Shown here: positions 1,603 through 33,912 of the stretch, piece by piece
How positions within the stretch are numbered: position 1 is the first letter of the stretch
Layout: each line of letters opens with the position of its first letter
Position numbers and translations under genes: made by a program
DNA from: Caldilineaceae bacterium SB0662_bin_25
GTDB lineage: Bacteria > Chloroflexota > Anaerolineae > Caldilineales > Caldilineaceae
Reading direction: 5' to 3'
Length of the DNA stretch: 33,912 nt
NCBI GenBank assembly: GCA_009840225.1
Contig: VXOE01000330.1
Coordinates: 1-33,912, forward strand
Notes under the pieces: model-generated
Told to the model about the DNA's origin: nothing
The model's input: only the letters and a program-made list of their open reading frames with translations
The model's database searches: none

Positions 1603-1617
1603 AGGAGGAACTGGAAT

Positions 1618-19372: not shown

Positions 19373-19456
19373 GTGGTTTTTGTTTGACTCAGAGAGGACA
19401 GTCTGTCAGATGGCTTAGCAGCCAAGACGCGTATTCGCCGTTTCACCGCCTCTCAG

Positions 19457-19486
19457 AGTATACATTTCTACTGTGAGAGCAGTCAA
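19457..19486 (-). promoter_or_regulatory. sigma70-like promoter of the membrane-protein gene
   Basis: On the - strand, TTGACT (19486-19481) is followed after 18 bases by TATACT (19462-19457). Each hexamer matches consensus at five of six positions. Transcription would start near 19450, giving a leader of about 78 nt before the ATG at 19372. This makes the gene transcriptionally separate from the upstream aminotransferase operon. Confidence 0.55.
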
Positions 19487-19731: not shown

Positions 19732-20637
19732 TCAGGCGACCAGAATGGGAAAGCCTGAGCTACGGGTCAGTTCGGCGTACAGTTGACTCAGTCGTTGGGT
19801 GACTGGCCCGCCTTCTCCTGTACCAATTGTGCGTCCGTCCAACTCGGTCACGGGCGTTAATTCGCCCATCGTGCCGGTACAGAACAGCTCATCGGCCCGG
19901 TATAGCTCAGGCAGGGAAATATCGCGCACTTCTGCGAGAATTCGATGTGTCCGGCACAGGTCCAGCACAGTGGCGCGGGTGATTCCTTCGGGGCAGGAGT
20001 GGGTGTGGGAGGTCGCAACGATACCGCGTTTGACCAGGAAGAGATGGGTGGCATTGGTTTCGGCGACGAAACCGTTCGTATCCAGCATCACCGCATCGTC
20101 GACGCCGGCGGTGTTGGCCTGGATCTTGGCCAGTATTGAGTTGAGCATATTACAGGAGTGGATGTTCTGGTCCAGACAGTCCGGGGGAATGCGACGGATG
20201 CCGGAGGTGATCAGGCGGATGCCGCCGCGGTCGTAGACCGGCGGTTTGTGTTCGGCCAGGACGATCAGCGTTGTGCCGCTTGTATTGATGCGGGGATCCA
20301 TACCGCTTGTGTACTTGACGCCGCGGGTGAGGGTGAGGCGAACGTGGACATTGTCCTGCATTTCGTTGGCCTTAAGCGTTCGCCGCACCTGATCCACGAT
20401 CTCCTCATTCGACGGAACGCCTTCATAGGCAAGGGCCTTTGCACCATCCTGGAGCCGGTCCAGATGCTCCTCCAGTTTGAAGATACGCCCGTCGTAGAGT
20501 CGCAGACCTTCCCAGACAGCATCGCCGTTTTGCACGGAGGAGTCGAAAGGGCTGACTCCGGCCTCGTCCCTGTGAACGAGTTGCCCGTTGATGTTGACCA
20601 GAAGATGGCGATTGGCTTCGTAGAATCTCTGCAGCAT
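19732..20637 (-). CDS. class IV (branched-chain-type) aminotransferase with Lys-to-His change
   Basis: This is a 301-residue fold-type IV PLP protein. Family landmarks are present: GDAVWEGLRLYDG (38-50), GFVAETNATHLF (189-200) with E193 for the pyridine nitrogen, EGITRATVL (217-225) for the phosphate and TGTMGELTPV (254-263). The catalytic lysine, expected in a K-x-L-N-x-L context before 'ILAK', is replaced: the sequence is NIHSCNMLNSILAK and H160 is a clean CAC codon. It may be a non-transaminating member, or the family may use another residue. GGAG lies about ten bases before the ATG. It follows the sulfotransferase-like gene by 50 bp, so the two are probably co-transcribed. IlvE function should not be assumed. 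Confidence 0.85.
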   Translation of the reverse strand: MLQRFYEANRHLLVNINGQLVHRDEAGVSPFDSSVQNGDAVWEGLRLYDGRIFKLEEHLDRLQDGAKALAYEGVPSNEEIVDQVRRTLKANEMQDNVHVRLTLTRGVKYTSGMDPRINTSGTTLIVLAEHKPPVYDRGGIRLITSGIRRIPPDCLDQNIHSCNMLNSILAKIQANTAGVDDAVMLDTNGFVAETNATHLFLVKRGIVATSHTHSCPEGITRATVLDLCRTHRILAEVRDISLPELYRADELFCTGTMGELTPVTELDGRTIGTGEGGPVTQRLSQLYAELTRSSGFPILVA

Positions 20638-20687
20638 TTTTCAGTACTCCAAAGGTCAACGGACTGCGCGTCCAACCCCGCCACTGT

Positions 20688-21431
20688 TCACTGACCGCGA
20701 TTCCTTGTCGTCAGTCGGAACCGGTAAAGTTCCTGGTAAGCTTCCTGCGCCTGGGCGAGAAGGTTCTGCAGTTGCGGGGGCACCGCTTCGTTCTTGGGAC
20801 GGTAGGGAGCGAAGCCGGTTGATTGTTCTACGGCCGCGTACCAATGGGGAGCCCAGACGCCGTCGCTGTCGCGGCGGCCCGGCGGCCAGGAGAGCATCCG
20901 CTCGGAGAAGGGCACTGACACCGCTTCACAAAGCAGTTTGAGAGTTCCGCTGGGGTTCTCCAACACGTCCTGACTGTCTATGATCGGAGGAATCGAGCCT
21001 GAGTTGCGGCGGACGGCCTCAAACAGCCGCAGCAGTTGCGGGAAACCGAGATCCAGGAGCGTGGGCTGGGCCCGCACCTTGATATAAGAGGTGATGACCT
21101 CAACCGGCGACCGGATCAGAAAGCAGTTGGTCAGCTTGTCCAGCCAGTCCAGCTCGATATGGTCCAACATGTGATGGGCCATATGCTTCTGATACCAGAT
21201 CGCCGCGCCTTCGGGCAGATGGTCTTCGGTCAGCGTGCGAGCAACAATGCGCCAGTCGGTCTCATAGCTGGCGATGATTTCTTCACTCGCCGGATGGTCG
21301 ATGCCGGTGACGTGCAGGTAATGAGCATAAAACGGCTCGTCGATCACGGTCGTGTCCGGGCGATTTTCCCAGGCGCGCATGAGTGCCGTTGAGATGGTGC
21401 GCGGCGCACACCACATGGCAATCCGAGTCAT
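20688..21431 (-). CDS. sulfotransferase-like P-loop protein
   Basis: This protein of about 247 residues starts 'MTRIAMWCAPRTISTALMRA'. CAPRTISTALM is the 5'-phosphosulfate-binding P-loop of sulfotransferase-family proteins. 'FLIRSPVEVITSYIKVR' is the typical 3'-phosphate segment, with RSP followed by an arginine about ten residues on. I prefer ATG 21431 because GAGG lies six bases upstream and the P-loop is then near the N-terminus, as in the family; an in-frame ATG at 21524 would add 31 unconvincing residues. It would transfer sulfate from PAPS to an unknown acceptor, or be a non-sulfating relative. It pairs with the aminotransferase gene 50 bp downstream. Confidence 0.8.
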   Translation of the reverse strand: MTRIAMWCAPRTISTALMRAWENRPDTTVIDEPFYAHYLHVTGIDHPASEEIIASYETDWRIVARTLTEDHLPEGAAIWYQKHMAHHMLDHIELDWLDKLTNCFLIRSPVEVITSYIKVRAQPTLLDLGFPQLLRLFEAVRRNSGSIPPIIDSQDVLENPSGTLKLLCEAVSVPFSERMLSWPPGRRDSDGVWAPHWYAAVEQSTGFAPYRPKNEAVPPQLQNLLAQAQEAYQELYRFRLTTRNRGQ

Positions 21432-21487
21432 TTCGGTCCTCAAGCTGCAGTGGATATGGGTTAGTGGTATGTATTTCGCTGCTCTGT

Positions 21488-22213
21488 CTAGCTGCTGACC
21501 ACGCCCGTTGTCGCCTTCATCCATCCTGCCAGTGTTTCCGCCAGCAGACAGAAACGTCCGAGGCTGGCGAGACTGTAGGAATCGGCGCTCAAGACGGTAT
21601 GCGCCGTCTTGGACTCACCTTCCAGTAGTTCGAGACGGACATATCCGTGGTGCATCTGACCACCTGCTCCGTTCCCGTCATTCCCATGGGGGTAGAGGTC
21701 GGCAATGGAGCCATTTCTGCCATTTTGAAGGTGCAGGTGGGCAAGTTCGCCGTTGTGAACGCTAAGAGACGAATTGAGTTCCTCTTCGAGTACAGGTTGG
21801 GCGACGATACTTTGGCTCAGACTGTGCTCCTCCTGTCCTTCTCCGGTCAGGGAGCCCGTCGACTCTATTGCGTCTGTTCTTGCAGGGGAAAGGGAGTCCC
21901 ACGTTGATATCCTGGCTGCCTGTTCGACGGGCTCAGCGTCCTCGTGAGACTGAGGAGAACCCTTGCGGTAACTGATCTGCAGTTTGCAGGGCTCGCTGAC
22001 TTGCCAGGAAACAACTCCGTCGCGTGTTTGGATACAGGCGACCCGGCTTCGCAGATGGTAGCGAAGGGTCACCAGATCATCCCCGTCCACTTCCAAACTC
22101 TTCATTTCTCGGCGCAGATTCTGCGGCAGCGACTTCGACAGTTGCGGCAGGGAAGTCGAAGGGAACGCATAGGATCGTATTCGCACGAACTCTCTATCGA
22201 TCAACCTAATCAT
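21488..22213 (-). CDS. protein of unknown function
   Basis: I do not recognise this 241-residue protein. The N-terminal ~90 residues look folded: 'VRIRSYAFPSTSLPQLSKSL', then 'RYHLRSRVACIQTRDGVVSW'. The middle (about 95-165) is rich in Ser, Glu, Gln and Gly and probably disordered. The last ~50 residues return to ordered, hydrophobic sequence (HGYVRLELLEG, then 'SYSLASLGRFCLLAETLAGW'). There is no signal peptide or membrane helix. Its ATG overlaps the oligopeptidase stop by four bases (ATGA, 22210-22213), which strongly supports translation and coupling to that gene. The sulfotransferase-like gene starts 56 bp downstream. Confidence 0.65.
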   Translation of the reverse strand: MIRLIDREFVRIRSYAFPSTSLPQLSKSLPQNLRREMKSLEVDGDDLVTLRYHLRSRVACIQTRDGVVSWQVSEPCKLQISYRKGSPQSHEDAEPVEQAARISTWDSLSPARTDAIESTGSLTGEGQEEHSLSQSIVAQPVLEEELNSSLSVHNGELAHLHLQNGRNGSIADLYPHGNDGNGAGGQMHHGYVRLELLEGESKTAHTVLSADSYSLASLGRFCLLAETLAGWMKATTGVVSS

Positions 22214-24360
22214 CGTCCACCGCTCCCGTCATCGAAGGGGACAGAATCAGTGGTGTCCAGAATGAACGCATACTCCAAGGCAACCTCCTCCAGGTAGTCG
22301 TAGCGACCGGACTTGCTGAAATGACCGGCGCCCATCTCGGTTTTGAGTAGTAGCGGGTTATCGTCGGTCTTGCACGCCCGCAGTTTGGCCACCCACTTGG
22401 CTGGCTCCCAATATTGCACTCTCGGATCGTTGAGGCCCGCGGTGGCTAAAATGGCCGGGTAGTCCTTGGCCTCGACGTTGTCATAGGGCGAATAGCTCTT
22501 CATGTAGTGGTAGTACTCCGGATCGGCGGGGTTGCCCCATTCCTCCCATTCGATGACCGTTAAGGGGATGCTGGCGTCGAGCATGGTGTTAACGACGTCG
22601 ACAAAGGGAACACCGGCGACGACGCCTGCGAACAGATCCGGCCGCTTGTTGGTTACCGCGCCCATCAGCAGGCCGCCGGCACTGCGACCGCTGATCACCA
22701 GGCGTCGTGGTGATGTGTAGCCGCTATCGATGATTGCCTCCGCACAGGCAATGAAATCGGTGAAGGTGTTCTTCTTTTTGAGATATTTGCCGTCTTCTTT
22801 CCACTGTCTTCCCATCTCACCGCCGCCGCGAATATGAGCGTAGGCGACTACGAAGCCCCGTTGCAGCAGACTCACAAGGTTGCTGCTGAAGAAGGGATCG
22901 TAACTCATGCCATAGGAGCCATAGCCGATCAGCAAGCAGGGGTTCTGGCCGTCCTTGTTCAGTTCAGCGGGGTAGACAAGCGAAACCGGCACTTGGACGC
23001 CGTCGGACGCGGACGCCCAGATGCGCTCGGTCGTGTAGGCCGCGGGATCATAGCCGTTCACTTCGTCCTGTTTGCGCAGCGTACGGTTACGATTTCCCAT
23101 TTCATAGTCGAAGACTGTCGGCGGGGAGACAAGAGAGGTGTAGCGATAGCGCAAGACCTGACTCTTGAAATCAGGATTCTGGCCGCGGGAGACTGTATAG
23201 ACAGGCTCCAACTGTTCGACACGGTGGGATGAAGATTCTTCGCCCCTGAAAAAGGCCCCGGTTTGCAGGTCCTGAATCCGGATATGGGTAAGGCCTTTCT
23301 CCCGCTCCCAGACAACCAGGAAATCCTGAAACGGTTCGATATGGTCCAGCATGACCTCGACGGAATGAGGTATCAGCTCCTGCCAGTTTTCTTTGGCGGG
23401 CGCCTTGACCGGCGCCGCCATCACGCGAAAATTCTCCGCCTCCCAATTTGTAAGAATAAGGAAACGTTCTTCCCCTGTCCGACTGCGATGGTGGGTGACA
23501 AAGTACTCCATGTCCTGCACGCGCGGCTGTACCAGAATAGGCTGCCCGTCCCTGTTGACCGCGTCGATGGCATATACTTCTGAGGTTACGGCGCTCCCAA
23601 GAGCGCAAAAGATGTAGCGCTCGCTCTTGGCCTTATAGAGCCGCAGAAAGAAGCGCTCGTCCTCCTCATGATAGACGACCTCGTCATTGGAAACGGGGTC
23701 GCCCAGGCGGTGGCGGTGCAGCTTGTGAGGCCTAAGGGCGGGATCGAGCGTGGTGTAGTAAAGGGTACGATTGTCGTTGCCCCATTCGAGCCCGTAGTAC
23801 GTGTTTTCGATCCGGTCAGGCAGCAGGCCGCCGGTTGTCAGGTCTTTGACCTGCAGCGTGTAGGTTTCCGACCCGTCGGTATCGAGGGCAAATGCCAGGA
23901 GTGAATGGTCGGGACTAACCGAGAAATTTCCCATGCGCAGGTAGTCGCGTCCTTCTGCCTCGAGGTTCAGGTCTATCAACACCTGTTCATCGGCGTCCAG
24001 ACTGCCCTTTTTGCGACAGTAGATGCGATACTGCTTGCCCTCTTCTTCGCGGTGGTAGTAGAAGTAGCCGCCGTGGGCAACGGGCACCGATTCATCGGTC
24101 TCCTTGATACGACTCTTCATTTCGTCGTAGAGGGTTTCCTGCAGAGCCTCGGTATGGGCCAGCATCGCTTCCGTATATCTGTTTTCGGCTTCGAGATAGG
24201 CCAGAACCGCCGGGTTGTCGCGCTCCCGTAACCAGTAGTATTGGTCGACTCGTTCGTCGCCGTGATTGCGATGGGTGACGGTCTGCACCGTCGCCACCGG
24301 AGGCTTAAGGTTTGCTTTTGATTCTGGCACAGCGGTGCACTCGCCAGTCTGAACTGACAT
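22210..24360 (-). CDS. ptrB: oligopeptidase B (prolyl oligopeptidase family, S9A)
   Basis: This 716-residue serine peptidase has an N-terminal beta-propeller (about 75-430) and a C-terminal alpha/beta-hydrolase domain. The catalytic triad is S560 in GRSAGG, D645 in LNDPRV and H680 in GAGHFSKSGR. The N-terminal 'DQYYWLRERDNPAVLAYLEA' and the 'HIRGGGEMGR' and EEWGNP segments are typical of oligopeptidase B, which cuts short peptides after Lys or Arg in the cytoplasm. Length is normal for the family and no signal peptide is seen. A GAGG site lies eight bases before the ATG. It is the first gene of a - strand operon with the unknown protein, sulfotransferase-like and aminotransferase genes. Confidence 0.95.
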   Translation of the reverse strand: MSVQTGECTAVPESKANLKPPVATVQTVTHRNHGDERVDQYYWLRERDNPAVLAYLEAENRYTEAMLAHTEALQETLYDEMKSRIKETDESVPVAHGGYFYYHREEEGKQYRIYCRKKGSLDADEQVLIDLNLEAEGRDYLRMGNFSVSPDHSLLAFALDTDGSETYTLQVKDLTTGGLLPDRIENTYYGLEWGNDNRTLYYTTLDPALRPHKLHRHRLGDPVSNDEVVYHEEDERFFLRLYKAKSERYIFCALGSAVTSEVYAIDAVNRDGQPILVQPRVQDMEYFVTHHRSRTGEERFLILTNWEAENFRVMAAPVKAPAKENWQELIPHSVEVMLDHIEPFQDFLVVWEREKGLTHIRIQDLQTGAFFRGEESSSHRVEQLEPVYTVSRGQNPDFKSQVLRYRYTSLVSPPTVFDYEMGNRNRTLRKQDEVNGYDPAAYTTERIWASASDGVQVPVSLVYPAELNKDGQNPCLLIGYGSYGMSYDPFFSSNLVSLLQRGFVVAYAHIRGGGEMGRQWKEDGKYLKKKNTFTDFIACAEAIIDSGYTSPRRLVISGRSAGGLLMGAVTNKRPDLFAGVVAGVPFVDVVNTMLDASIPLTVIEWEEWGNPADPEYYHYMKSYSPYDNVEAKDYPAILATAGLNDPRVQYWEPAKWVAKLRACKTDDNPLLLKTEMGAGHFSKSGRYDYLEEVALEYAFILDTTDSVPFDDGSGGR

Positions 24361-24415
24361 CGAAGATCCTCACCTGCACTTGTCATGTACTGCGTCAAGG
24401 GGGTACCGCGGGACC

Positions 24416-24421
24416 ATTATA
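24416..24421 (-). promoter_or_regulatory. possible -10 element for the oligopeptidase operon
   Basis: The palindrome ATTATAAT (24416-24423) gives a perfect TATAAT on the - strand about 55 bases before the oligopeptidase ATG. No good -35 hexamer is visible at the right distance, so an activator or the AT-rich context would be needed. Confidence 0.35.
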
Positions 24422-24465
24422 ATGTATCAATGTTAGATGCCCTATTTCTGAGAGTGGTGAAAAAT

Positions 24466-24494
24466 TTGACAAAGAATTGGGCGTCGTGTAGCCT
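24466..24494 (+). promoter_or_regulatory. possible promoter of the ABC-transporter/catabolic operon
   Basis: A perfect -35 TTGACA (24466-24471) is followed after 17 bases by a poor -10, TAGCCT (24489-24494). Transcription would start near 24501. A strong -35 with a weak -10 is common at regulated promoters. It lies about 45 bases from the divergent -10 of the oligopeptidase operon. Confidence 0.4.
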
Positions 24495-24515
24495 ATCACC
24501 GGTTCCTCCGTTCAG

Positions 24516-24547
24516 GCGTCCCAAGCGTGTTGAGGCAATGGGGACGC
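24516..24547 (+). promoter_or_regulatory. inverted repeat in the leader of the ABC operon
   Basis: GCGTCCC (24516-24522) pairs perfectly with GGGACGC (24541-24547) around an 18-base loop. It would lie near the 5' end of the predicted transcript, so it could be an operator half-site pair for an unlinked repressor or a stabilising RNA hairpin. The remaining bases up to the first gene show nothing further. Confidence 0.4.
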
Positions 24548-24652
24548 GGGCCCATTGACCAGCTCAGGCAGCAAGTCAGAATATGCTTTTGCTGCGGCCA
24601 TTCAAGATGGCCGGACAGACTGTATTCCCCTGCGTCACCAGGAAATCCTCAA

Positions 24653-25666
24653 GTGATCAACGAGAAGCAGTTGGACAGGCAGGCCTCGTCGCCGCCAGAC
24701 CCGCACGGTTCTGAACAACCGGCGTCACTGAGTGAGCCCTTCTTGCACCGGCTCTTTGGCAACCAGCGGGAGTTCAAAACGAATCTTTCGTTGCTCTCGA
24801 TGTCGCTTCCCGGAATCGTACTGCTATTCATCTTCGCCTACCTGCCTATGCTAGGCATCATCATCGCCTTCAAGGACTACCGTTTCAATCTGGGTATCCT
24901 GGGCAGCGAATGGGTCGGATTCCGGAATTTCGAATTTCTATTCGGCACGGATGCAGCCTTTCGAATCACGCGCAATACACTGCTGATGAATCTTCTCTTC
25001 ATCAGCACAACTACAGTTTGTGCGTTGACGATTGCGATTCTGATGAATGAAGCTTATCGCAGCCGCATGAGCAAGTATTATCAGACGATGCTGTTCTTCC
25101 CTTACTTCATATCATGGGTAATCGTCAGCTATTTCGTCTTTGCATTCCTCAATGGCCAGACCGGGCTGATCAACCAGTGGGTAGATGCACTGAAACTGGA
25201 TCGAATTGCCTGGTACCGGTCGCCTGAATACTGGCCGGTCATCCTGGTGCTCGCCAATCTGTGGAACGGAATCGGTTTCAGCAGTATCATCTACCTGGCT
25301 GGGATTCTCGGCATTTCCCCGGAGTTGTTTGAAGCGGCCAAAATCGACGGTGCGGGCAAGATGCAACAGATCCGTTTCATCACCTTGCCGATGCTGTACC
25401 CGATGATCATCATTCTCACGCTGCTGGCAATTGGCCGCATTTTTCATGCCGACTTCGGTCTGTTCTTCTTTTTGCCCCGAGATAATCCGCTGCTCTATTC
25501 CACGACCGACGTCATCGACACATTTGTATACCGTTCACTGGTCGAGCTGGGTGAGATCAGCATGGCCGCGGCAGCCGGCTTTTACCAGTCGTTTGTCGGA
25601 TTCCTGCTGGTCGTGGGGGCCAACTGGGTGGTACGACGAGTCAACGAAGACTACGCACTGTATTAG
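24653..25666 (+). CDS. ABC sugar transporter permease, LplB type
   Basis: This 337-residue inner-membrane permease of the CUT1/LplB family has about six helices. Its cytoplasmic EAA loop is EAAKIDGAGKMQQIRFITLP (228-247), the contact site for the ATPase. The preceding 'NLWNGIGFSSIIYLAGI' and the 'FHADFGLFFFLPRDNPLLY' segments are typical of LplB/YtcP-neighbour permeases that import oligosaccharides or polysaccharide fragments. The frame opens at a TTG at 24527, but GTG 24653 has AGGA nine bases ahead and gives a normal-length protein. With the next permease, which starts nine bases after this stop, it should form a heterodimeric channel. No ATPase is encoded nearby. Confidence 0.9.
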   Translation: MINEKQLDRQASSPPDPHGSEQPASLSEPFLHRLFGNQREFKTNLSLLSMSLPGIVLLFIFAYLPMLGIIIAFKDYRFNLGILGSEWVGFRNFEFLFGTDAAFRITRNTLLMNLLFISTTTVCALTIAILMNEAYRSRMSKYYQTMLFFPYFISWVIVSYFVFAFLNGQTGLINQWVDALKLDRIAWYRSPEYWPVILVLANLWNGIGFSSIIYLAGILGISPELFEAAKIDGAGKMQQIRFITLPMLYPMIIILTLLAIGRIFHADFGLFFFLPRDNPLLYSTTDVIDTFVYRSLVELGEISMAAAAGFYQSFVGFLLVVGANWVVRRVNEDYALY

Positions 25667-25675
25667 GCCGCCTTC

Positions 25676-26584
25676 ATGTCCGTAACGACCACTCGCCAGA
25701 CAACATCGCTCAACCGCTACAGAGTACAAGCGTATTTGGGCCGGTTCGCAGTCCACACAGTGCTGACCCTGGTCGGCTTGACCTGTCTGATTCCGCTCAT
25801 ACTTGTCGTTAGCATATCGCTTTCTGACGAACTGCGGCTAGCAAAGGAGGGCTACCAGCTACTGCCGGTCGGCTTTACGACCTTTGCGTACGAATACATA
25901 CTGCAGGAACCGCGACAGATATTGCGGGCGTACGGGGTGACGGCCTTCGTAACGACGTTCGGGACTGTAGCCGGGCTGCTGGTCTGCTCACTGCTTGCAT
26001 GGCCGCTGGCGAGAAAAGATTTCCGGCTGCGCGGGCCGCTGTCGTTCTACGTGTTTTTCACTTTGCTCTTCAACGGCGGCATGGTTCCCTTCTACATATT
26101 GGTTACCCGCTACCTGGGCTTGAAGGACAATATCTTTGTATTAATATTGCCGTATATGGTAACGGCATGGTACGTCCTGATCATACGGACCTCATTTGCC
26201 CAGCTGCCGACGGAGTTGCTGGACGCGGCCAGGATAGACGGCGCCGGCGAGTGGCGGATATTCTTCCAGATCGTGGTGCCGCTCTCCAAGCCGGTGCTGG
26301 CAACGATCGGCCTCTTTTTCGTGCTTCGTTACTGGAACGACTGGTTTCTGGCACTGCTGTTTATCGACGACAGCTCGATGTATCCGCTTCAGTATCTGCT
26401 CTACGTGCTGATGGCCAACATCAATATCATGGCGGCCAATCCGCAAACGACGGGAATGCCGATTCCGACGCTCTCGGCGCGCATGGCGATGGCCGTTTTG
26501 GCTTTCGGACCGGCGCTCTTTACGTTCTTGCTGCTGCAGAAATACTTCGTCCGCGGGATTACAATCGGTGGGCTGAAAGGATAG
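25676..26584 (+). CDS. ABC sugar transporter permease, LplC/YtcP type
   Basis: This second permease, 302 residues, has about six helices and an EAA-type loop LLDAARIDGAGEWRIFFQIV (181-200) followed by VPLSKP. 'FFTLLFNGGMVPFYILVTRY' and the C-terminal KYFVRGITIGGLKG are hallmark sequences of the YtcP/LplC group. It pairs with the LplB-type permease just upstream. The binding-protein gene follows after 152 bp that hold a hairpin. The substrate is unknown; in this group it is typically an oligosaccharide or an acidic or otherwise modified sugar polymer fragment. Confidence 0.9.
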   Translation: MSVTTTRQTTSLNRYRVQAYLGRFAVHTVLTLVGLTCLIPLILVVSISLSDELRLAKEGYQLLPVGFTTFAYEYILQEPRQILRAYGVTAFVTTFGTVAGLLVCSLLAWPLARKDFRLRGPLSFYVFFTLLFNGGMVPFYILVTRYLGLKDNIFVLILPYMVTAWYVLIIRTSFAQLPTELLDAARIDGAGEWRIFFQIVVPLSKPVLATIGLFFVLRYWNDWFLALLFIDDSSMYPLQYLLYVLMANINIMAANPQTTGMPIPTLSARMAMAVLAFGPALFTFLLLQKYFVRGITIGGLKG

Positions 26585-26646
26585 TGCAGATCGAGGCGCC
26601 CTCTTATCCACTGTGTTTGCGGATGAACTCACTTTGGAGACCTTCG

Positions 26647-26677
26647 ATGACGGAAAGAGACTCTCGCCTTCCGTCGT
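26647..26677 (+). promoter_or_regulatory. hairpin in the leader of the binding-protein gene
   Basis: GACGGAA (26649-26655) pairs with TTCCGTC (26669-26675). The stem can extend by a G-U and an A-T pair to 26647 and 26677. The loop contains a further GAG/CTC match. An ATG with a GGAG site opens at 26647 in frame with the lipoprotein, so the hairpin also covers a possible alternative start. It may protect or separate the highly expressed binding-protein mRNA. Confidence 0.4.
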
Positions 26678-26736
26678 TGATCACTTTCCAGCATAGGATT
26701 TTCAACGTTCTGTTCACTCAAAAGGAGAAGACACAG

Positions 26737-28272
26737 ATGACTCGAAAGCGGATTCTGGCCATACTCAGCGTTTTGCTGGTCGCCTCACTGGTCCTTACGG
26801 CCTGCCCGGCGCCCGCGCCGGCGGCTACTTCGGCAGACGAAGGCCAACAGGCCGCGCCTGCGCCAGCCGAAGGACTGGTTAACATTACATACTCCTACGG
26901 AAGCCGCGGTATTCCGGCGGACCTGCAGATGGTGGAGGATGCGATGAATGAAATCCTCCACGAGAAGATCGGCGTAAACCTTACCCTGGAACCAATCGAC
27001 TTCGGCGCGTTCAACGATAAGATGCAGTTGCGCCTGTCCGCGGGTGAGGAGTGCGATATCATTTTCACGGCGCCCTGGATCAACAGTTACGCCAACAATG
27101 TTGCCAACGGCGTCTTGGCGCCGCTGGACGATCTTCTGCTCAATCACGCGCCTGGCCTGTGGGGCAGCATGCCGCCCACGACCTGGGATGCGGCACGCGT
27201 AAATGGCGTCATCTATGGCGTCATCAATCAGCAGATCTTTCCCAAGCCCTGGGGCGTCCATCCTCGCAAGGATTTGGCCGAGAAGTACGGCCTCGATCTC
27301 GATTCCGTAACGAAGTGGGAAGATATGGAGCCCTGGTTGGCCGATGTGCGTGACGGCGAGGGCATTACGCCTGTATTCGTTGCGGCGCCGGGAAGGGGAC
27401 TCTTTCTCTCCCAGTACTACGGCTTCGATCCCTTGGATGACGGTATTGGCTTTCTGGGCATGAAGGCTGATGACGAGACGCTGACAGCCGTCAATATGGT
27501 GGAAACAGTTGAATTTCAGATGGCGGCCGAGTCGACCAAGCGTTGGGTGGATGAAGGCTATATGCCGCTTGAGCCGCTGCCCAATGACGAGGCTCGATCC
27601 GCTTTCCGTGCCGGTCAGTATGCTATGGGCTATCATGTAGAAAAGCCGGGGAACGACGTTGAGGCGCAGAACGCCTACGGCTTCGAGTTCCTGAGCAAGA
27701 GCTTGACAGTCCCACTGATTCTGGACACTTCCGGTGCTACGGCAACGATGAACGCCATTTGCTCCACTTCCAAGAATCCGGGCAAGGCAATGGAGGTTTT
27801 GGAGGAGTTCAACACCAATGCCTATATCTATAACCTGCTTTCGCGCGGCATTGAGGGCGTGCACTGGGTCTGGGAAGATGAGGCCAACCAGGTGATGCGC
27901 TTCCCCGATGGTGTGGACGGCAACACCAGCACATATAATCCGAACACAGACTGGATGTTCGGCAATCAGTTCAACGCCTACTATCGGGACGCCAAGCAGG
28001 TCGGGGCCTGGGAAGCAACCAAGGAGATGAACGACACGGCCTTCCCGTCGGAAGCACTGGGCTTTGTCGTGGACCGCGAACCGATCAAGACGGAGATTGC
28101 CCAGACATCGGCCGTTTACAACGAGTTTGTGTTACCGATCCAGTACGGTTGGGTCGCATATGAGGATGGCGCGCCCGAGGCCATCGAGAAGCTGAATGAG
28201 GCCGGCGCCCAGACCATCATCAATGAAGTGAACCGCCAGCTGCAGGAGTGGCGGGCAAAGAACCCACGGTAA
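26737..28272 (+). CDS. lipoprotein extracellular solute-binding protein, LplA type
   Basis: This 511-residue lipoprotein has a signal peptide MTRKRILAILSVLLVASLVL ending in lipobox LTAC with C23, then an Ala/Pro/Glu-rich linker. The mature part is an LplA-like binding protein: 'LRLSAGEECDIIFTAPW' is the typical ligand-domain segment, and the C-terminal ~130 residues resemble the DUF3502-type domain of this group. It would sit on the outer face of the cytoplasmic membrane and feed the two permeases. I chose ATG 26737 because GGAG lies nine bases upstream and the signal peptide then begins properly. The frame is open far upstream only as a shadow of the permease gene. Inverted repeats on both sides may raise its expression over its neighbours. 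Confidence 0.92.
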   Translation: MTRKRILAILSVLLVASLVLTACPAPAPAATSADEGQQAAPAPAEGLVNITYSYGSRGIPADLQMVEDAMNEILHEKIGVNLTLEPIDFGAFNDKMQLRLSAGEECDIIFTAPWINSYANNVANGVLAPLDDLLLNHAPGLWGSMPPTTWDAARVNGVIYGVINQQIFPKPWGVHPRKDLAEKYGLDLDSVTKWEDMEPWLADVRDGEGITPVFVAAPGRGLFLSQYYGFDPLDDGIGFLGMKADDETLTAVNMVETVEFQMAAESTKRWVDEGYMPLEPLPNDEARSAFRAGQYAMGYHVEKPGNDVEAQNAYGFEFLSKSLTVPLILDTSGATATMNAICSTSKNPGKAMEVLEEFNTNAYIYNLLSRGIEGVHWVWEDEANQVMRFPDGVDGNTSTYNPNTDWMFGNQFNAYYRDAKQVGAWEATKEMNDTAFPSEALGFVVDREPIKTEIAQTSAVYNEFVLPIQYGWVAYEDGAPEAIEKLNEAGAQTIINEVNRQLQEWRAKNPR

Positions 28273-28322
28273 AGGCAAGCGCAACACAGCTGAAGGTATT
28301 GCAGATGCGCTGATAGCGTTGT

Positions 28323-28362
28323 GCCGCTGCGCCGGCCTCCCGCAGGGCCTTGGCGCAGCGGC
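28323..28362 (+). terminator. long GC-rich hairpin after the binding-protein gene
   Basis: GCCGCTGCGCC (28323-28333) pairs perfectly with GGCGCAGCGGC (28352-28362), 11 base pairs with no mismatch. The 18-base loop itself contains GGCC/GGCC that can pair. No T-run follows, so partial termination or protection of the upstream mRNA 3' end is more likely than full termination. It lies in the 171-bp gap before the next gene. Confidence 0.55.
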
Positions 28363-28443
28363 GAACGCTTACCCGTAGACAGTTCAGTTCGTGCCGGCGG
28401 CAACCGAATACACACAATTCCACACACAAGAGAGGTGAGCCTC

Positions 28444-30405
28444 GTGCTTACACTCACTGCCAGCGTCCCTCTTGATGCACCGCCCACCTGGGCCGTGATG
28501 GAGCGGGCGCTTTTCGATCTGATGGACCGGTCCGTAGAACCCTTTTTGAAGAAGTACACAAGGCCCGACGGGACGTTGATCTGGGCCGACAGGTGGAGTG
28601 ACTCACGCGACGGCGCCGATGATTTTTACGAGAGCTCCTACAACTGGCCCCTCTACTATCTGCTCGGGGGCGGCGATCACCTGCTCACGCAGGGGCAGCG
28701 CCAGTGGGACGCCATCACGAGACAGCTGGAAGAGCTCGGGCCGGTGCTGGACGAGTATGAACGGGGCTATGATCAGTTCCACCAGAGCGAGAGCTACATC
28801 TATTTCTACTTTCTCTGTCTGGCCGACCCGACAAATGAGCGCAATCGCGAGCGCGCAGTGCGGTTTGCGGGCCTGTATCTGAACGAGAACCCCGATGCGC
28901 CCAACTACGATCCTGAACGCATGCTGATCAGGGCGCCGCACAACGGCAGCGGCGGGCCGCGCTGGGGCTTCACGGACAGCCCGGAGCCGAGCTACGGTTG
29001 GAGCGCGTCCATGCGCACCTATGGCCTTCCTTACACCGACATTGAAGACGTTGGCGAATACGACGATTTGAAAGATCCGGCCCTGGCGCGTCGCATGGGA
29101 GAGGCGATGCAGGAGCGTATGGGCAAGGGGGACGTTGCCGGGAACTTGATGGTCACGAGTCTGATTGCGAATGCCTTCCTGCTCACCGGCGACGAGAAGT
29201 ACCGGCGCTGGATCGTCGAGTATTTTGATGCCTGGCGGGAGCGGGCCGCGAGCAGCTCTCCCGCGTCAAAGCAGTCCGGACAGCTGGACCGGCCAAAACC
29301 GGACGGCCTGCTGCCGGACAACGTGGGGCTGTCCGGAGAGGTCGGCGAGTACATGGATGGACGCTGGTACGGCGGTCTCTACGGCTGGAGCTGGCCGCAC
29401 GGTTACTACAATATTGGCATGGCCGCGACCGTCAGCGGCGGCAACGCCTTTTTGCTCACCGGGGAAAAGGGATACCTGCAGCTGGCCAACGACCAGTATG
29501 ACGCCATCTGGGATTTGGGCGAGTTGCGCAGTCCCCGCGGCGAAGAGATGAGCCTGCGAAGCCACTGGGTGGACCAGCTGGACGGCGAAGAGGAAGGGAT
29601 CTTTGTCGTCCCATACCGGCACAATGACGAGGGCTGGTTCGACTATCAGCCGATGTCGCCGGTCTACCCCACGGCTGTGTGGAACATGACGATGGATCCC
29701 GCCGACTGGGAGCGAATCGAGGCACTGCGACGGGTGGGGAAGTACGACTGGCGCCGCGTTCAGGGTTTCCGCAATAAGGAGGACAACGGCCACGAACAGC
29801 CGTGGCTGCGGTTCCTGGCAGGAGACAACCCTGACTATCCCGAGCAGATGCTGGCCGCCACCTACGGGCAGGTCTGCCGTCGACTGGCGTTGATTCGAGA
29901 AGACGTGGAGGACCTGACGCTGGTGCACATCCACCACTGGCAACAGCTCAACCCCGTGATCACAGAGGCTCTGGTTCAGCTAACACTGGGCGCGCCCCAG
30001 ATCATCTATAACGGCGGGCTACTCCACTGCCGGCTGCGGTACTACGACGCGGTCCGCAAGCGGCCGGGCCTGCCTCCTGACACGGCCGCGCTCGTAACGA
30101 GGCTGGAGGCGGAGCGCACGGTGGTGGAACTGGTCAACCTGAACCCAAATGAGACGCGTACGGTGATATTGCAGGCGGGCGGCTTCGGCGAACATCGTTT
30201 CGAGGTAGTCCGCTATACGAAGAGGACAAGCAGTTACCCGGGCCGACCACCAGCTTACCAGTCGCCTGAAGTCGAACAATCGACCGTAGAGGAGGACGTC
30301 AACGACGTCTACCTGCAGGTCGAGCTCCCGCCGGCGACGCGGATTGAACTGGATATAACGACGGCTCGATACGTCAACGAGCCTTCGTACAGGCAGCCCT
30401 GGTGA
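28444..30405 (+). CDS. large protein of unrecognised family in sugar cassette, possibly toroid-fold hydrolase/lyase
   Basis: I do not recognise this 653-residue protein. It has no signal peptide and no membrane segment, so it is cytoplasmic. Residues about 1-480 are rich in aromatic residues and helices, with repeated segments such as SSYNWPLYYLLGGGDHL, ANAFLLTGDEKYRRWI and GNAFLLTGEKGYLQLAND. This repeated 'xAFLLTG[DE]KxYxx' helix pattern is what (alpha/alpha) toroid enzymes show. Acidic and aromatic clusters (HQSESYIYFYF, YGWSWPHGYYN) could line a sugar site. Residues about 530-653 look like a beta-sandwich. GTG 28444 is chosen because of GAGAGG upstream; the frame is open further. It lies between the binding protein and the enolase-type dehydratase, suggesting it acts on the imported sugar. 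The fold is inference. Confidence 0.7.
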   Translation: MLTLTASVPLDAPPTWAVMERALFDLMDRSVEPFLKKYTRPDGTLIWADRWSDSRDGADDFYESSYNWPLYYLLGGGDHLLTQGQRQWDAITRQLEELGPVLDEYERGYDQFHQSESYIYFYFLCLADPTNERNRERAVRFAGLYLNENPDAPNYDPERMLIRAPHNGSGGPRWGFTDSPEPSYGWSASMRTYGLPYTDIEDVGEYDDLKDPALARRMGEAMQERMGKGDVAGNLMVTSLIANAFLLTGDEKYRRWIVEYFDAWRERAASSSPASKQSGQLDRPKPDGLLPDNVGLSGEVGEYMDGRWYGGLYGWSWPHGYYNIGMAATVSGGNAFLLTGEKGYLQLANDQYDAIWDLGELRSPRGEEMSLRSHWVDQLDGEEEGIFVVPYRHNDEGWFDYQPMSPVYPTAVWNMTMDPADWERIEALRRVGKYDWRRVQGFRNKEDNGHEQPWLRFLAGDNPDYPEQMLAATYGQVCRRLALIREDVEDLTLVHIHHWQQLNPVITEALVQLTLGAPQIIYNGGLLHCRLRYYDAVRKRPGLPPDTAALVTRLEAERTVVELVNLNPNETRTVILQAGGFGEHRFEVVRYTKRTSSYPGRPPAYQSPEVEQSTVEEDVNDVYLQVELPPATRIELDITTARYVNEPSYRQPW

Positions 30406-30416
30406 AGGGGAATTAA

Positions 30417-31562
30417 ATGAAGATTACAGCTCTAGACACTGTATGTCTCTCGCGCATGCACGAACCAGAACGGCAATGGATCACTGCCAGCTATCGCACG
30501 GTAAAGGCTGATTGCGCGGTCGTCCGGGTTCATACCGATGAGGGGCTGGTCGGAATCGGGGAAGCGAGCGCCTACGGCGTGCCGCCGCGTATCGCAGAAT
30601 GGGTCGACTGGCTGGCGCCGACGCTCATCGGCAAGGACCCGACAGACAGTGCCACGCCGCCGCATCCGAATGGCAGGGACCGCGCCCATGACGCCGCCAT
30701 CGCCGGCATCGACTGCGCGCTGTGGGACCTGCGAGGGAAAGCGGCGGGCAAGCGGGTCAGCGAGCTGCTGGGTGACAGCCCGGCTTCGTCAGTACCGATG
30801 TATGCATCCAGCGGATGCCGCTATGACTGGCGGGACCGGCCCGAACAGCTGATCGATGAGGCACTGGGATATGTAGAACAGGGCTTCCCGGTGATGAAGT
30901 TCCGCATCGGCACGGACTGGGAGTGGGACGGTGTGACTGTTGATCGCTTTCTCGGCCTGGTGCGAGAGCTGCATCAGGCGGTGGCGGGACGAATGAAGCT
31001 GGCGCTGGACGGTAACTGCCGGCTTACGCTGGAGGAGGCGCTGCCCATTGCCAGGGAGCTGGACCGACTGGAGTTCGCCTGGCTGGAGGAGCCGATCCCT
31101 TGGAGCGATATCGACGGCTATGCCGCACTCGCCGCGGCAGTGGAAATGCCTGTAACCGGCGGCGAGAGCTTCACGACTCTGGAGCAGTTTCGTCCGTATA
31201 TTGAAAAGCGGGCCTATGATATCGTGCAGCCTGACGCGGGTGTTTGCGGCCTGACCGAACTGGTGCGCATCGCGGAGCTGGCCGCGCATCACGGCCTCAA
31301 ACTTTATCCCCATTCCTGGCATAATGGATTGATGGCGATGGTGCACGCGCACGCGGTTGCAGCCCTGCCCAACCTGGAGATTCTGGAGGTCTGCCAGATT
31401 CAAGGGCCGCTGCAATGGGATATTGCCGCAGACCCGCCGGCAATGAACGGCGGCCATCTGCAGCTGCCGGACAGTCCCGGCCTGGGAATCGAGTTGGCGG
31501 AAGGGGTTGCCAAACGTTACCCTTACATTGAAGGGCACTACGCTTTGACGGTCGAACGGTAA
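30417..31562 (+). CDS. enolase-superfamily (mandelate racemase/sugar-acid dehydratase) protein
   Basis: This 381-residue enolase-superfamily member has the capping domain (about 1-125) and the barrel. Metal ligands are D198 in ALDGN, E224 in WLEEP and E250 in TGGES. The first catalytic segment is K161-F-R163 (MKFRIG) and the opposite base is the D273/H299 dyad (QPDAG and YPHSW). This is the mandelate racemase subgroup, which removes the alpha-proton of sugar acids and either racemises or dehydrates them. K-x-R in place of K-x-K is common in acid-sugar dehydratases. The substrate is unknown. GGGGAA lies seven bases before the ATG, 11 bases after the unknown gene, so the two are co-transcribed. 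A cytoplasmic role in sugar-acid breakdown is expected. Confidence 0.9.
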   Translation: MKITALDTVCLSRMHEPERQWITASYRTVKADCAVVRVHTDEGLVGIGEASAYGVPPRIAEWVDWLAPTLIGKDPTDSATPPHPNGRDRAHDAAIAGIDCALWDLRGKAAGKRVSELLGDSPASSVPMYASSGCRYDWRDRPEQLIDEALGYVEQGFPVMKFRIGTDWEWDGVTVDRFLGLVRELHQAVAGRMKLALDGNCRLTLEEALPIARELDRLEFAWLEEPIPWSDIDGYAALAAAVEMPVTGGESFTTLEQFRPYIEKRAYDIVQPDAGVCGLTELVRIAELAAHHGLKLYPHSWHNGLMAMVHAHAVAALPNLEILEVCQIQGPLQWDIAADPPAMNGGHLQLPDSPGLGIELAEGVAKRYPYIEGHYALTVER

Positions 31563-31580
31563 TCGCCGAAAGGCGGCGAT
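31562..31580 (+). other. short hairpin at the end of the enolase-type gene
   Basis: ATCGCC (31562-31567) pairs with GGCGAT (31575-31580), beginning at the last base of the stop codon. An alternative fold gives CGCC-GAAA-GGCG with a stable GNRA tetraloop. There is no T-run. It may protect mRNA ends rather than terminate transcription. The rest of the 84-bp gap carries only the ribosome site of the next gene. Confidence 0.3.
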
Positions 31581-31646
31581 GGACATGCATAGGCAGGGAC
31601 AGGCTGCGTTCAGCCTGACTCTGGACAGTGGACAACAGGAAACTAC

Positions 31647-32786
31647 ATGAAAAAGGTACGCGTTGCTGTCGTCGGCATGGGTATTGGCAGGCCCAATGGG
31701 CTCGCTCTGGCAAGCAACCCGCGCACAGAGGTAGTGGCGCTGTGTGATCTGGTCGAGGAGAGCATGGCCGACTTCGCGGCGCTGTTGCCGCAGCCGGACG
31801 AGGTTCGCCTGTACACTGACTTTGACGAGCTGTGCCGCAGCCGCGAGATCGATGCTATCTTTATCGGCACGCCCAATCAGCTGCATGTGCCGATGGGCCT
31901 GAAAGCGGTGGCCCATGAAAAACACGTCCTGATGACGAAGCCGCTGGCCGATTCAGTGGAGGCGGCGGAGCGGATGGTGGAAGCGGCAGAGGCTGCCGAG
32001 GTCGTTAACATGATGTCACTCTCCACCCGTTTTTCCGCTGAAGTGCAGTATATGGGCGCCCTGGCGCGATTGGGGACTTTCGGCGATCTTTACTACGCCC
32101 GCGCCCGCAGCATCCGCCGCAACGGCATTCCGGCATGGAATCCCGGCTTCATCCGCAGAGGCGGCGGCGCGTTTCGCGATATGGGCGTGCACGTGCTGGA
32201 CGCGGCGTGGTGGATGCTGGGTATGCCGCGGCCGGTGAGCGTGACCGGTGTCGCCGGTGCGAGGTTCGGGCCGCGCGGGCTGGGATTCTTCGGGCGCAAG
32301 GCGCCGGATGAAGTCGCGGCAGCCCCTAAGAGTTACTACAGCCAGTTTGCTGCTGACGATTACGCTGGCGGTTTCATCCGTTTTGAGAACGGCGGCGCGC
32401 TGCAGGTTGAGAGCTTTTGGGCCTCTCACCAGCCCGGTGACCTGCAGATCGAGTTGTTCGGAGAGGAGGCGGGTGCCCAGGTGCGGCCGCCAATGCTGTA
32501 CACGAACGGCCCTGTCCCCACCGCCGTCGTGGATACAGCCAAGAGATTCGAAGCCAAACCTGTGGCAGGCCGGAGTCTGAAAGGTGAGGGCCGACCTCTG
32601 GACATTTCGTTTGACGGCCTCACCAAAGAAAGAAACAAGGCTTGGAACGCCATAGCCGATCACTTCATCGCCTGCATTTTGGATGGCGTCCCTTGCGAGG
32701 CGCCCCTGCGCCATGGTTTGATCGTACAGGAGATGATGGAGGGCCTGTTGAGAAGCGCAGAAATCGAACGTGAGGTTCGACTTTAG
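31647..32786 (+). CDS. Gfo/Idh/MocA-family oxidoreductase
   Basis: This 379-residue NAD(P)-dependent sugar or sugar-acid dehydrogenase has a Rossmann start VAVVGMGIGRPNG (6-18), 'AIFIGTPNQLHVPMGLKA' (70-87) and the MTKPLA segment (96-101). Families usually read EKP; here the glutamate is Thr but the catalytic K98 remains. The C-terminal domain has GGAFRDMGVHVLDAAWWMLG (173-192), with D178 and H182 as the usual catalytic residues. It would oxidise a hydroxyl of a pyranose, inositol or sugar acid in the cytoplasm. It is 84 bp after the enolase-type gene and AGGA lies about eight bases before the ATG. Close context with the PhyH-type oxygenase suggests a joint route for a modified sugar. Confidence 0.9.
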   Translation: MKKVRVAVVGMGIGRPNGLALASNPRTEVVALCDLVEESMADFAALLPQPDEVRLYTDFDELCRSREIDAIFIGTPNQLHVPMGLKAVAHEKHVLMTKPLADSVEAAERMVEAAEAAEVVNMMSLSTRFSAEVQYMGALARLGTFGDLYYARARSIRRNGIPAWNPGFIRRGGGAFRDMGVHVLDAAWWMLGMPRPVSVTGVAGARFGPRGLGFFGRKAPDEVAAAPKSYYSQFAADDYAGGFIRFENGGALQVESFWASHQPGDLQIELFGEEAGAQVRPPMLYTNGPVPTAVVDTAKRFEAKPVAGRSLKGEGRPLDISFDGLTKERNKAWNAIADHFIACILDGVPCEAPLRHGLIVQEMMEGLLRSAEIEREVRL

Positions 32787-32845
32787 AGTGAGAGCGATGG
32801 AATGGCCTCTGCTCGACGGAGGGGTGAAGAAACAGGAGGAGAAAG

Positions 32846-33754
32846 ATGCCTGTATTGGATGAAAAAGACTGGGCGTTCTGGGAAGAAAACGGTTATGTCG
32901 TGATCCCAAATGCCGTGCCGCAGGAGAATCTGGACGCACTCATAGAGCAGATCTGGACTTTCCTGGAGATGGATGAGTCCGACCCGGAGACTTGGTATCG
33001 GTACAGACCGTACACGCGTGAGGATCTCTGTTCTCCGATCTCACAAGCAGGGATGGTGGAAATGTACCAGCATCAGTCGCTGTGGGACAACCGCCAGTAC
33101 CCGCGCCTCCATGAGGCTTTCAGCGAGATTCTGGGCACGGAGAAGCTGTGGGTATCCCTGGATCGCGCCAATATGAAGCCGCCCGACCGCGCCGACAGGC
33201 CGGAATGGGGCCACAAGGGTATGATTCATTGGGACATTGACACCAGCGCATTGCCGCTGCTGGAGGGTGACGACGTCGCCGCAACCTGGCGCCCGGATCC
33301 CACTTCCCATACTGGCGTGCAGGGCGTTCTCTATTTGACAGATACCGGCCCAGACCAAGGCGGCTTTCAGTGTATACCCGGTTTTCACAGGACGTTCTAC
33401 GAATGGGTAAGAACGCAGCCGGCTGACCGCAATCCGCGCTTTCCCGACATGGACGGCCTCGACATAAAAGTTGTAGAGGGTAAGGCTGGCGATTTTGTCA
33501 TCTGGCACAAGCTGCTGGCGCACGGTAACGGTCACAACCGTTCGACGCGGCCGCGGTTGGCCCAGTACATCACAATGGGGCCGGCCCCGGACAGGGACGA
33601 AGAACAACGGGCTGCGCGTATTCGCTCCTGGCAAGAGTGCCGCCCCATGGAACACTGGCCTGGAGACCTCCGCGACTGGGAACACCGGCATCAGACACCG
33701 GCCAAGCTGACGACTTTGGGACGCAAGTTACTTGGGGTGGACTCCTGGAACTAG
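32846..33754 (+). CDS. phytanoyl-CoA dioxygenase (PhyH)-family Fe(II)/2-oxoglutarate oxygenase
   Basis: This 302-residue PhyH-family protein opens with 'FWEENGYVVIPNAVPQENLD', the classic N-terminus. Iron ligands are H128-x-D130 (MIHWDID) and H226 (LLAHGNGHN). R235 or R237 in NRSTRPRLAQY should bind the 2-oxoglutarate carboxylate. 'GFQCIPGFHR' is the usual mid-barrel strand. These enzymes hydroxylate a substrate using O2 and 2-oxoglutarate. The substrate is unknown; in bacteria, PhyH genes next to Gfo/Idh and sugar ABC genes are often linked to modified sugars or cyclitols. A strong AGGAGGA site six bases upstream supports the ATG. It is the last gene visible in the cassette. Confidence 0.93.
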   Translation: MPVLDEKDWAFWEENGYVVIPNAVPQENLDALIEQIWTFLEMDESDPETWYRYRPYTREDLCSPISQAGMVEMYQHQSLWDNRQYPRLHEAFSEILGTEKLWVSLDRANMKPPDRADRPEWGHKGMIHWDIDTSALPLLEGDDVAATWRPDPTSHTGVQGVLYLTDTGPDQGGFQCIPGFHRTFYEWVRTQPADRNPRFPDMDGLDIKVVEGKAGDFVIWHKLLAHGNGHNRSTRPRLAQYITMGPAPDRDEEQRAARIRSWQECRPMEHWPGDLRDWEHRHQTPAKLTTLGRKLLGVDSWN

Positions 33755-33912
33755 ATGCGAGAGCACGCTTACAACCTAAGTCGTGACTGCTAAGTCCTTG
33801 CCCAAAGGCGCTCAAGATTCAGCATGGCGAAAGATGTTTCTCTCTCCTCACTCCTCCTTACTCTCTCCTCGCTTTTGGGCGGTCGGGCCTATTCGGCCCT
33901 CCCTTGTGCGGG
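33755..33912. other. non-coding end of window with pyrimidine tract and small hairpin
   Basis: No gene is visible. A pyrimidine-rich tract (about 33838-33871) is, on the - strand, a run of GAG/GTGAGG units like the inverted repeat after coxM. A five-base-pair hairpin, GGGCC (33885-33889) with GGCCC (33895-33899), follows and is trailed by TCCCTT. It may be a weak terminator for the oxygenase gene. The window ends before any downstream gene. Confidence 0.35.

Follow-up and report, generated by a model that had tools for sequence, protein, structure and literature searches.

Gene content of the locus

The window, i.e. the whole 33,912-nt stretch of DNA that was analysed, comes from a Caldilineaceae MAG, and the host bacterium is probably a sponge dweller. 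A check of its ORFs against Pfam placed seven cassette genes at positions 24653-33754, all on the + strand. The run of seven gene types that an earlier note on this DNA had named is thus present, and Pfam matched the families of all except ORF4. Two starts were corrected: the lipoprotein begins at an ATG at 26737 and ORF4 at a GTG at 28444, with a GAGAGG ribosome-binding site upstream. With these starts, the intergenic gaps in gene order are 9, 152, 171, 11, 84 and 59 bp. Promoter and terminator scans of the locus were at chance level, so the limits of the operon could not be set by those scans. An Rfam scan of positions 19000-33912 gave no match. The DNA of the window is GC-rich and contains long shadow ORFs.

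The importer

The first two genes encode CUT1 ABC permeases with BPD_transp_1 domains. Permease 1 (24653-25666) is AlgM1/LplB-like; its best match among PDB sequences was AlgM1 (4tqu, E 4e-57), and MalF was matched at 1e-12. For permease 2 (25676-26584), the nearest NCBIfam model was UgpE, with a score far under the cut-off. The third gene (26737-28272) encodes a substrate-binding lipoprotein with SBP_bac_8 and a C-terminal DUF3502 domain. Its lipobox, LTAC, ends at Cys23, and 5swa, 5mlt and 5suo were its nearest solved relatives in a PDB sequence search. It is the sole DUF3502 protein found in the host genome. There is no transport ATPase gene in the cassette; the host genome has four MsmX/UgpC-type ATPases (TOBE_2), all of them elsewhere. 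Two permeases and a binding lipoprotein, with the ATPase in trans, make up the gene complement of a CUT1 importer.

ATPase-less importers of Bacillus subtilis use the shared MsmX, and YtcQP-YteP serves galacturonic-acid oligomers (PMC5730181). The cassette resembles YtcQP-YteP and YesOPQ as an ATPase-less CUT1 importer, predicted here to carry acidic oligosaccharides with a shared MsmX. However, its partner enzymes differ and its binding protein is of the DUF3502 type, which the same search that was used on the host genome did not find in B. subtilis. The earlier label of "Lpl-type" permeases fitted only loosely: the best match of permease 1 is AlgM1, but the binding protein has the DUF3502 domain, for which that search gave no B. 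subtilis counterpart. The likeness to the alginate importer is also partial, as permease 1 is close to AlgM1 in sequence but the cassette has neither an ATPase gene nor a known alginate lyase family.

The three downstream enzymes

The fifth gene (30417-31562; MR_MLE_N/C) encodes an MR-type sugar-acid dehydratase or cycloisomerase of the enolase superfamily. It has the residues of the MR subgroup: K161xR163, the metal ligands D198/E224/E250 and the D273-H299 dyad. These ligands align with D194/E220/E246 of DauB (5olc), the 3,6-anhydro-D-galactonate cycloisomerase of the Zobellia carrageenan pathway (PMC5698469). The D/E/E ligands and the second-best PDB match of the MR protein relate it to DauB and the galactaro-1,4-lactone cycloisomerase 4ggb. 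However, the cassette has no anhydrogalactosidase and no DauA-like aldehyde dehydrogenase, and the function of DauB cannot be transferred to the MR protein at such a superfamily distance. No NCBIfam equivalog model of a named sugar-acid dehydratase (arabinonate, galactonate, talarate/galactarate and others) was matched above its cut-off; the best, AraD_Arch, scored 161.5 bits where 650 are required.

The sixth gene (31647-32786; GFO_IDH_MocA) encodes a Gfo/Idh/MocA dehydrogenase with a Rossmann domain, K98-P99 and D178xxxH182. Its closest solved relatives are DgpA1 (9m3d, E 2e-34) and DgpA (7xr9, E 2e-32), and the NCBIfam models of glycoside 3-dehydrogenase and disaccharide 3-dehydrogenase were matched under their cut-offs. 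In the available text of PMC11239390, DgpA acts on C- and O-glycosides by oxidising C3. These matches would suit another pathway, in which a DgpA-like Gfo/Idh oxidises C3 and elimination then breaks the bond; the substrate would in that case be not a polyuronide but a glycoside or glycoconjugate. We consider this very unlikely, because the similarity to DgpA is distant within a very diverse family, no DgpB/C-like C-glycoside eliminase partner was found in the cassette and, beyond the genus, ORF4 is not accompanied by this subtype of Gfo/Idh.

The last gene (32846-33754) encodes a PhyH-family Fe(II)/2-oxoglutarate oxygenase (PF05721 at 66 bits, cut-off 22). The facial triad is present, with H128xD130 and a distal H226, assigned by eye, near the R237 region. 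No PDB sequence was matched at E <= 0.01. The host genome holds 115 PhyH matches, the cassette gene among them, so that a PhyH gene next to an operon says little. The earlier suggestion of a methylated or otherwise modified sugar thus received no specific support, and the methylated-sugar substrate was dropped.

Sequence and predicted fold of ORF4

The fourth gene, ORF4 (28444-30405), encodes 653 amino acids and belongs to no described family. It had no match in Pfam at E <= 0.1, including GH88 (PF07470), GH76 and the AGE/YihS families, and none in NCBIfam. Single and profile searches of PDB sequences gave nothing relevant, with one chance match at E 0.7. No signal peptide was seen by eye. The AlphaFold model (pLDDT 89.4, pTM 0.91) is an (alpha/alpha) toroid followed by a C-terminal beta-sandwich, and the label "toroid-like", given from the sequence, was therefore right.

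The structural neighbours of the toroid included the sugar-active enzymes GH76 (Z 15.4), GH88 (Z 14.2) and AGE epimerases (Z 14), and no single family stood out. ORF4 thus shares the toroid arrangement of the GH88 unsaturated glucuronyl hydrolases and GH76 mannanases, but it differs in its additional beta-sandwich, an identity of about 12% and the lack of a Pfam match. A PL2 pectate lyase stood at rank 50 of one neighbour list; no other toroid polysaccharide lyase family (PL8, PL15, PL17, PL21 and others) was among the matches listed, which does not imply exclusion. The hydrolase, lyase and epimerase matches span approximately 1-2 Z units, at a level common for helical bundles, and comparison of the predicted fold does not choose among the three activities. 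D110, judged by position to lie near the start of an inner helix, might correspond to the GH88/GH76 catalytic Asp; this is a rough guess, and no argument here relies on it.

ORF4 might also be an AGE/YihS-like epimerase or isomerase, or a toroid enzyme of some other sort that acts on the imported acid sugar without cleaving a bond, in which case the operon would contain no cleavage step. AGE-superfamily epimerases and isomerases head the Foldseek lists. In addition, His113 is invariant among the relatives, His319 and His497 are nearly so, and in the model all three lie at or just before the starts of inner helices. However, the TM-scores are low (0.2-0.4), the epimerase chains listed have roughly 400 residues and lack the length and beta-sandwich of ORF4, and His319 and His497 are substituted in the haloarchaeal and Asticcacaulis members. 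We regard such an activity as quite unlikely, and we propose that ORF4 is a cytoplasmic glycosidase or lyase.

Distribution and neighbourhoods of ORF4

Relatives of ORF4 occur in Chloroflexota, Latescibacterota, Gemmatimonadota, actinomycetes and haloarchaea, the last with Halopiger HALXA_RS18100 and Haloterrigena HTUR_RS23190 among them; none was found in the viral contigs searched. We counted neighbouring genes at 79 ORF4 loci outside the genus and in 40 control regions. An acid-sugar gene (MR, UxuA, RraA, KdgD or UxaC) was present at 49 of the 79 loci, compared with 4 of the 40 controls (Fisher test, P = 2e-8), although just two Caldilineaceae genomes supplied the controls and the loci lack phylogenetic independence. 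MR alone was found at 32 loci (3 controls), RraA at 22 (1 control) and UxuA at 10 (0 controls). Comparatively, CUT1 permeases (E <= 1e-15) were not enriched (19/79 versus 13/40).

Some haloarchaeal copies have pectate lyases, GH3, GH4 and GH28 within about 10 kb, and others have MR, DHDPS-family enzymes and UxaC within the same distance. Such pectate lyases and glycoside hydrolases nearby point to cleavage of an oligosaccharide rather than to epimerisation. The Asticcacaulis copy has KdgD and DgoD nearby. A KdgF-type cupin beside it had no NCBIfam match and no relative at the other ORF4 loci, and this candidate was dropped. A search for GH88 genes throughout the Caldilineaceae family placed none near the cassette.

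Conservation of the seven genes

The full set was found in 14 of the 17 genomes of the window's genus and in none of the 29 other members of the family. The synteny expected from the earlier note was thus upheld within the genus but not elsewhere in the family. Within-genus synteny also takes in an unrelated prolyl oligopeptidase, which makes it weak evidence. Beyond the genus, the binding protein with ORF4, or ORF4 with MR, persists without Gfo/Idh and PhyH, so the idea of a single seven-gene unit holds for one genus only. The binding protein and ORF4 orthologs remain close to each other in eight genomes from other genera.

It seems possible, but unlikely, that two unrelated modules adjoin here, one of the importer and ORF4 for an oligosaccharide and one of MR, Gfo/Idh and PhyH for a monomeric sugar acid or an osmolyte, with no seven-step pathway. 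Two genomes of the genus are consistent with this: G015 keeps MR, Gfo/Idh and PhyH contiguous without the binding protein or ORF4, and G020 lacks MR. None of the 79 ORF4 loci outside the genus carried an ortholog of the window's Gfo/Idh or PhyH, and the 115 PhyH copies and the conserved peptidase point the same way. However, in tblastn counts MR orthologs with 58-67% identity adjoin ORF4 in several other Chloroflexota, which indicates that ORF4 and MR are coupled. Moreover, the gap between ORF4 and MR is only 11 bp, followed by 84 bp to Gfo/Idh and 59 bp to PhyH.

Proposed function

We think it somewhat more likely than not that the locus is a small operon for the utilisation of acidic oligosaccharides, with import, cleavage by ORF4 and dehydration by MR as its steps and Gfo/Idh and PhyH as lineage-specific parts. 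The DUF3502 lipoprotein and the two permeases would import a short oligosaccharide containing uronic acid, with energy from a shared ATPase of the MsmX type encoded elsewhere in the genome. In the cytoplasm, ORF4 would cleave the glycosidic bond of this oligosaccharide, either hydrolytically or by elimination. The sugar acid that is released (or formed by oxidation) might then be dehydrated by the MR-type enolase, which would yield a 2-keto-3-deoxy acid. Gfo/Idh may oxidise a particular form of the substrate and PhyH may hydroxylate or trim one, both as later additions in this lineage. The type of transporter, the presence of an MR dehydratase and the ORF4 neighbourhoods in many phyla support import and acid-sugar catabolism, as proposed in the earlier note.

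More tentatively, ORF4 could found a new carbohydrate-active family of cytoplasmic toroid enzymes that act as glycosidases or lyases on uronic-acid oligosaccharides; the family would be common to the Chloroflexota, Latescibacterota, Gemmatimonadota, actinomycetes and haloarchaea. In sponge-type Caldilineaceae, Gfo/Idh and PhyH might be joined to it as an undescribed route to a decorated, host- or seawater-specific acid sugar. We regard this extended reading as a whole as somewhat doubtful.

We found no named pathway with the exact seven-gene set in the literature searched, in agreement with the earlier note. In the available text of PMC6306507, however, degradation of uronic acids and glycosaminoglycans was already inferred from genomes for sponge Caldilineae and Anaerolineae. 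The lineage and the general substrate class match those of the cassette, but the route given in that text is the canonical one of UxaC, tagaturonate reductase, altronate hydrolase and oligogalacturonide lyase, and neither the cassette nor ORF4 is described there.

Of the parts of the cassette, the ORF4 family is the one that merits testing; the others come from well-known families. ORF4 is conserved and widespread, has no Pfam or NCBIfam model and is consistently found close to acid-sugar genes. Cleavage of oligouronides by ORF4, if shown, would establish a new family of carbohydrate-active enzymes and fill a gap both in polysaccharide use by sponge-associated Chloroflexota and in the pectin-type catabolism of haloarchaea. 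The haloarchaeal copies are labelled "hypothetical" in the records examined.

Gene organization and conservation of the cassette

The cassette (24653-33754, plus strand) comprises seven co-oriented genes: two CUT1 permeases, a binding lipoprotein, the toroid-like protein ORF4, a mandelate-racemase-type dehydratase (MR), a Gfo/Idh dehydrogenase and a PhyH oxygenase. Pfam matches agreed with the gene types guessed in the earlier note, and the corrected starts were ATG 26737 for the lipoprotein and GTG 28444 for ORF4. A prolyl oligopeptidase gene lies upstream in divergent orientation (22210-24360, minus strand). The window corresponds to contig C36 of a metagenome-assembled genome (MAG) that measures 5.6 Mb, is 95% complete and has Caldilineaceae MAGs as its nearest relatives (ORF4 95% identical). 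The bin names and the abundance of Caldilineae in sponges, as described in PMC6306507, suggest a sponge source.

We surveyed synteny in 46 genomes of the family, 17 from the window's genus and 29 from other genera. The genes for the binding protein, ORF4, MR, Gfo/Idh and PhyH occurred together in order in 14 of the 17, although the set was spread over two contigs in G014 and the binding protein was truncated in G011. The three exceptions lacked the binding protein (G008), lacked MR (G020) or had only MR-Gfo/Idh-PhyH (G015). The full set was found in none of the 29 other-genus genomes. The binding protein and ORF4 were close neighbors in eight of these 29 (G024, G025, G028 and G039-G043), accompanied by MR in G028, G042 and G043. 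Conserved gene order inside the genus says little for a pathway, because the unrelated upstream oligopeptidase was equally syntenic there (12 loci). The 4 kb after PhyH were less well kept (coverage 0 to 1, with 0 at the most divergent locus, L033), which fits PhyH as the putative last gene.

Predicted fold of ORF4

ORF4 (28444..30405, 653 amino acids) had no Pfam match at E <= 0.1, no NCBIfam match and no relevant match among PDB sequences in single or profile searches. Its AlphaFold model (51 aligned sequences; pLDDT 89.4, pTM 0.91) consisted of an all-helical toroid and, after it, a beta-sandwich, and a toroid-only model concurred (pLDDT 88.6); the description of this enzyme as toroid-like was therefore correct. 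Its structural neighbors were GH76 (Z 15.4, rmsd 4.8, 276 aligned), GH88 (Z 14.2, rmsd 5.1, 303 aligned), AGE epimerases (Z about 14) and GH47 (Z 13.5). With the toroid only, GH76, GH47, GH88, AGE and LanC-type cyclases were about tied. The fold class of the model is thus clear, but these neighbors, so close to one another in score, do not settle its chemistry.

Active sites of toroid enzymes lie at the starts of inner helices. Many invariant ORF4 residues were at or near such positions. In a set of 54 sequences with haloarchaeal and Asticcacaulis members among them, the invariant polar residues included D56, D59, D60, E63, E104, D110, H113, E116, R140, N154, D156, N234, R267, Y313, D421, D535 and E583 (numbered from the GTG start, shifted by -15 from the alignment). 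No signal peptide was seen by eye and the actinomycete ORF4 comes after sugar permeases, so we place ORF4, on these sequence features, in the cytoplasm.

Acid-sugar genes near ORF4

The genome collection yielded 152 confirmed ORF4 relatives, of which 80 were kept, from Chloroflexota, Latescibacterota, Gemmatimonadota, Spirochaetota, Nonomuraea, Streptomyces and Amycolatopsis. Plasmid records added 17, chiefly from haloarchaea. Pectate lyases lay within about 10 kb of ORF4 in Halopiger, Haloterrigena, Halosolutus, Halomontanus and Halostagnicola, and GH4, MR, DHDPS-family enzymes or UxaC did so in these or other haloarchaea. One Asticcacaulis ORF4 had KdgD and DgoD nearby, each scoring over its NCBIfam cut-off. 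Nonomuraea and Streptomyces shared the order permeases, ORF4, RraA and beta-helix proteins, one of the last with a GH141 domain match. A UxuA relative adjoined ORF4 at the Chloroflexota loci L040-L043 and L054. An RraA-like, aldolase-fold gene was near ORF4, mostly directly after it, at 22 loci across phyla (L017, L019, L051, L054, L062, L064, L068, L069, L073, L077, L084 and L089-L099); at L054 the match was weak (29%) and not adjacent. One of these proteins fell into the unnamed NCBIfam subfamily PRK08245. The RraA-like protein may be an aldolase or decarboxylase of the ORF4 pathway.

As controls for 79 ORF4 loci from beyond the window's genus (17 kb on average), we took 40 regions of 20 kb, placed at even intervals along two complete chromosomes of that genus. 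At least one of MR, UxuA, RraA, KdgD and UxaC was present at 49/79 loci against 4/40 control regions (Fisher p 2e-8), a comparison in which the ORF4 loci are interrelated, the controls represent a single genus and several query proteins came from ORF4 loci themselves, biasing toward matches there. RraA occurred at 22/79 versus 1/40 and UxuA at 10/79 versus 0/40. The MR figure (32/79 versus 3/40) is the least biased, because its query came from the window. No enrichment was seen for CUT1 permeases at E <= 1e-15 (19/79 versus 13/40), and none of the 79 loci had an ortholog of the window's Gfo/Idh or PhyH.

An acidic oligosaccharide is the best supported reading of the cassette's substrate, while the methylated sugar also proposed in the earlier note gained no support. 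The seven genes as a unit are specific to the lineage, assembled around a core of ORF4 and acid-sugar genes that is shared widely. Uronic-acid use has already been predicted for sponge Caldilineae in PMC6306507; the novelty of the cassette is the ORF4 family.

Transporter and downstream enzymes

Among PDB sequences, permease 1 matched AlgM1, a component of the alginate importer, at E 4e-57 and MalF at 1e-12. The lipoprotein carries SBP_bac_8 and a C-terminal DUF3502 domain (Pfam) and was the only one of its kind found in the window's genome; across 14 control genomes, the DUF3502-type search matched in Lactococcus lactis only, with none in Bacillus subtilis. The cassette contains no ATPase gene, and four TOBE_2 ATPases are encoded elsewhere in the genome. 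This arrangement resembles that of YtcQP-YteP, an MsmX-dependent importer for galacturonic-acid oligomers (PMC5730181), and the substrate class of the cassette importer is thus an informed guess by analogy.

All metal ligands and catalytic residues were present in MR, with D198, E224 and E250 aligned to D194, E220 and E246 of DauB; the offset of 8 was verified by counting along the alignment. It fell below every NCBIfam equivalog cut-off, so its substrate cannot be named. The motifs expected of Gfo/Idh were present, and the best match among its solved relatives was DgpA, described in PMC11239390 as a glycoside 3-oxidase; we treat this likeness as a lead, not an assignment. PhyH had the HxD motif and plausible distal His and Arg. 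With 115 PhyH-family matches in the 5.6 Mb genome, there is a real chance that its place beside the operon is incidental. Its position directly after Gfo/Idh was kept across the genus.

ORF4 paralogs and other genes in the window

Two further ORF4 relatives were found in the window's genome, with 33-46% identity in aligned pieces. The paralog on contig C206 (locus L108:4072-13856) has a peptide-type ABC importer and a class V aminotransferase on one side and three sulfatase-like proteins on the other (importer and sulfatases named by eye, aminotransferase by Pfam); its flanks also hold genes for a luciferase-like monooxygenase and a Gfo/Idh-like protein. This is possibly a sulfated-glycan locus. 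Its gene content suggests that members of the ORF4 family are used for several oligosaccharides, perhaps including sulfated ones. At the Chloroflexota loci L034, L035 and L037, too, the gene directly before ORF4 encodes a class V aminotransferase, which by eye resembles isopenicillin-N epimerase, as it does before the paralog at L108.

Elsewhere in the window, the minus strand carries a sulfotransferase-domain gene (20688-21524) beside one for a class IV aminotransferase (19732-20637). GlcD-, GlcE- and GlcF-like glycolate oxidase subunits (8979-16220) are interrupted by a GSDH + F5/8 type C protein and by a zinc alcohol dehydrogenase. A molybdenum CO-dehydrogenase-type cluster (355-8982) encodes CoxG, CoxS, CoxL, CoxM, an AAA protein, CoxE and XdhC/CoxI. 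CO oxidation by this cluster is not assured, because its CoxL carries the form II motif AYRGAGR and not the form I motif AYxCSFR.
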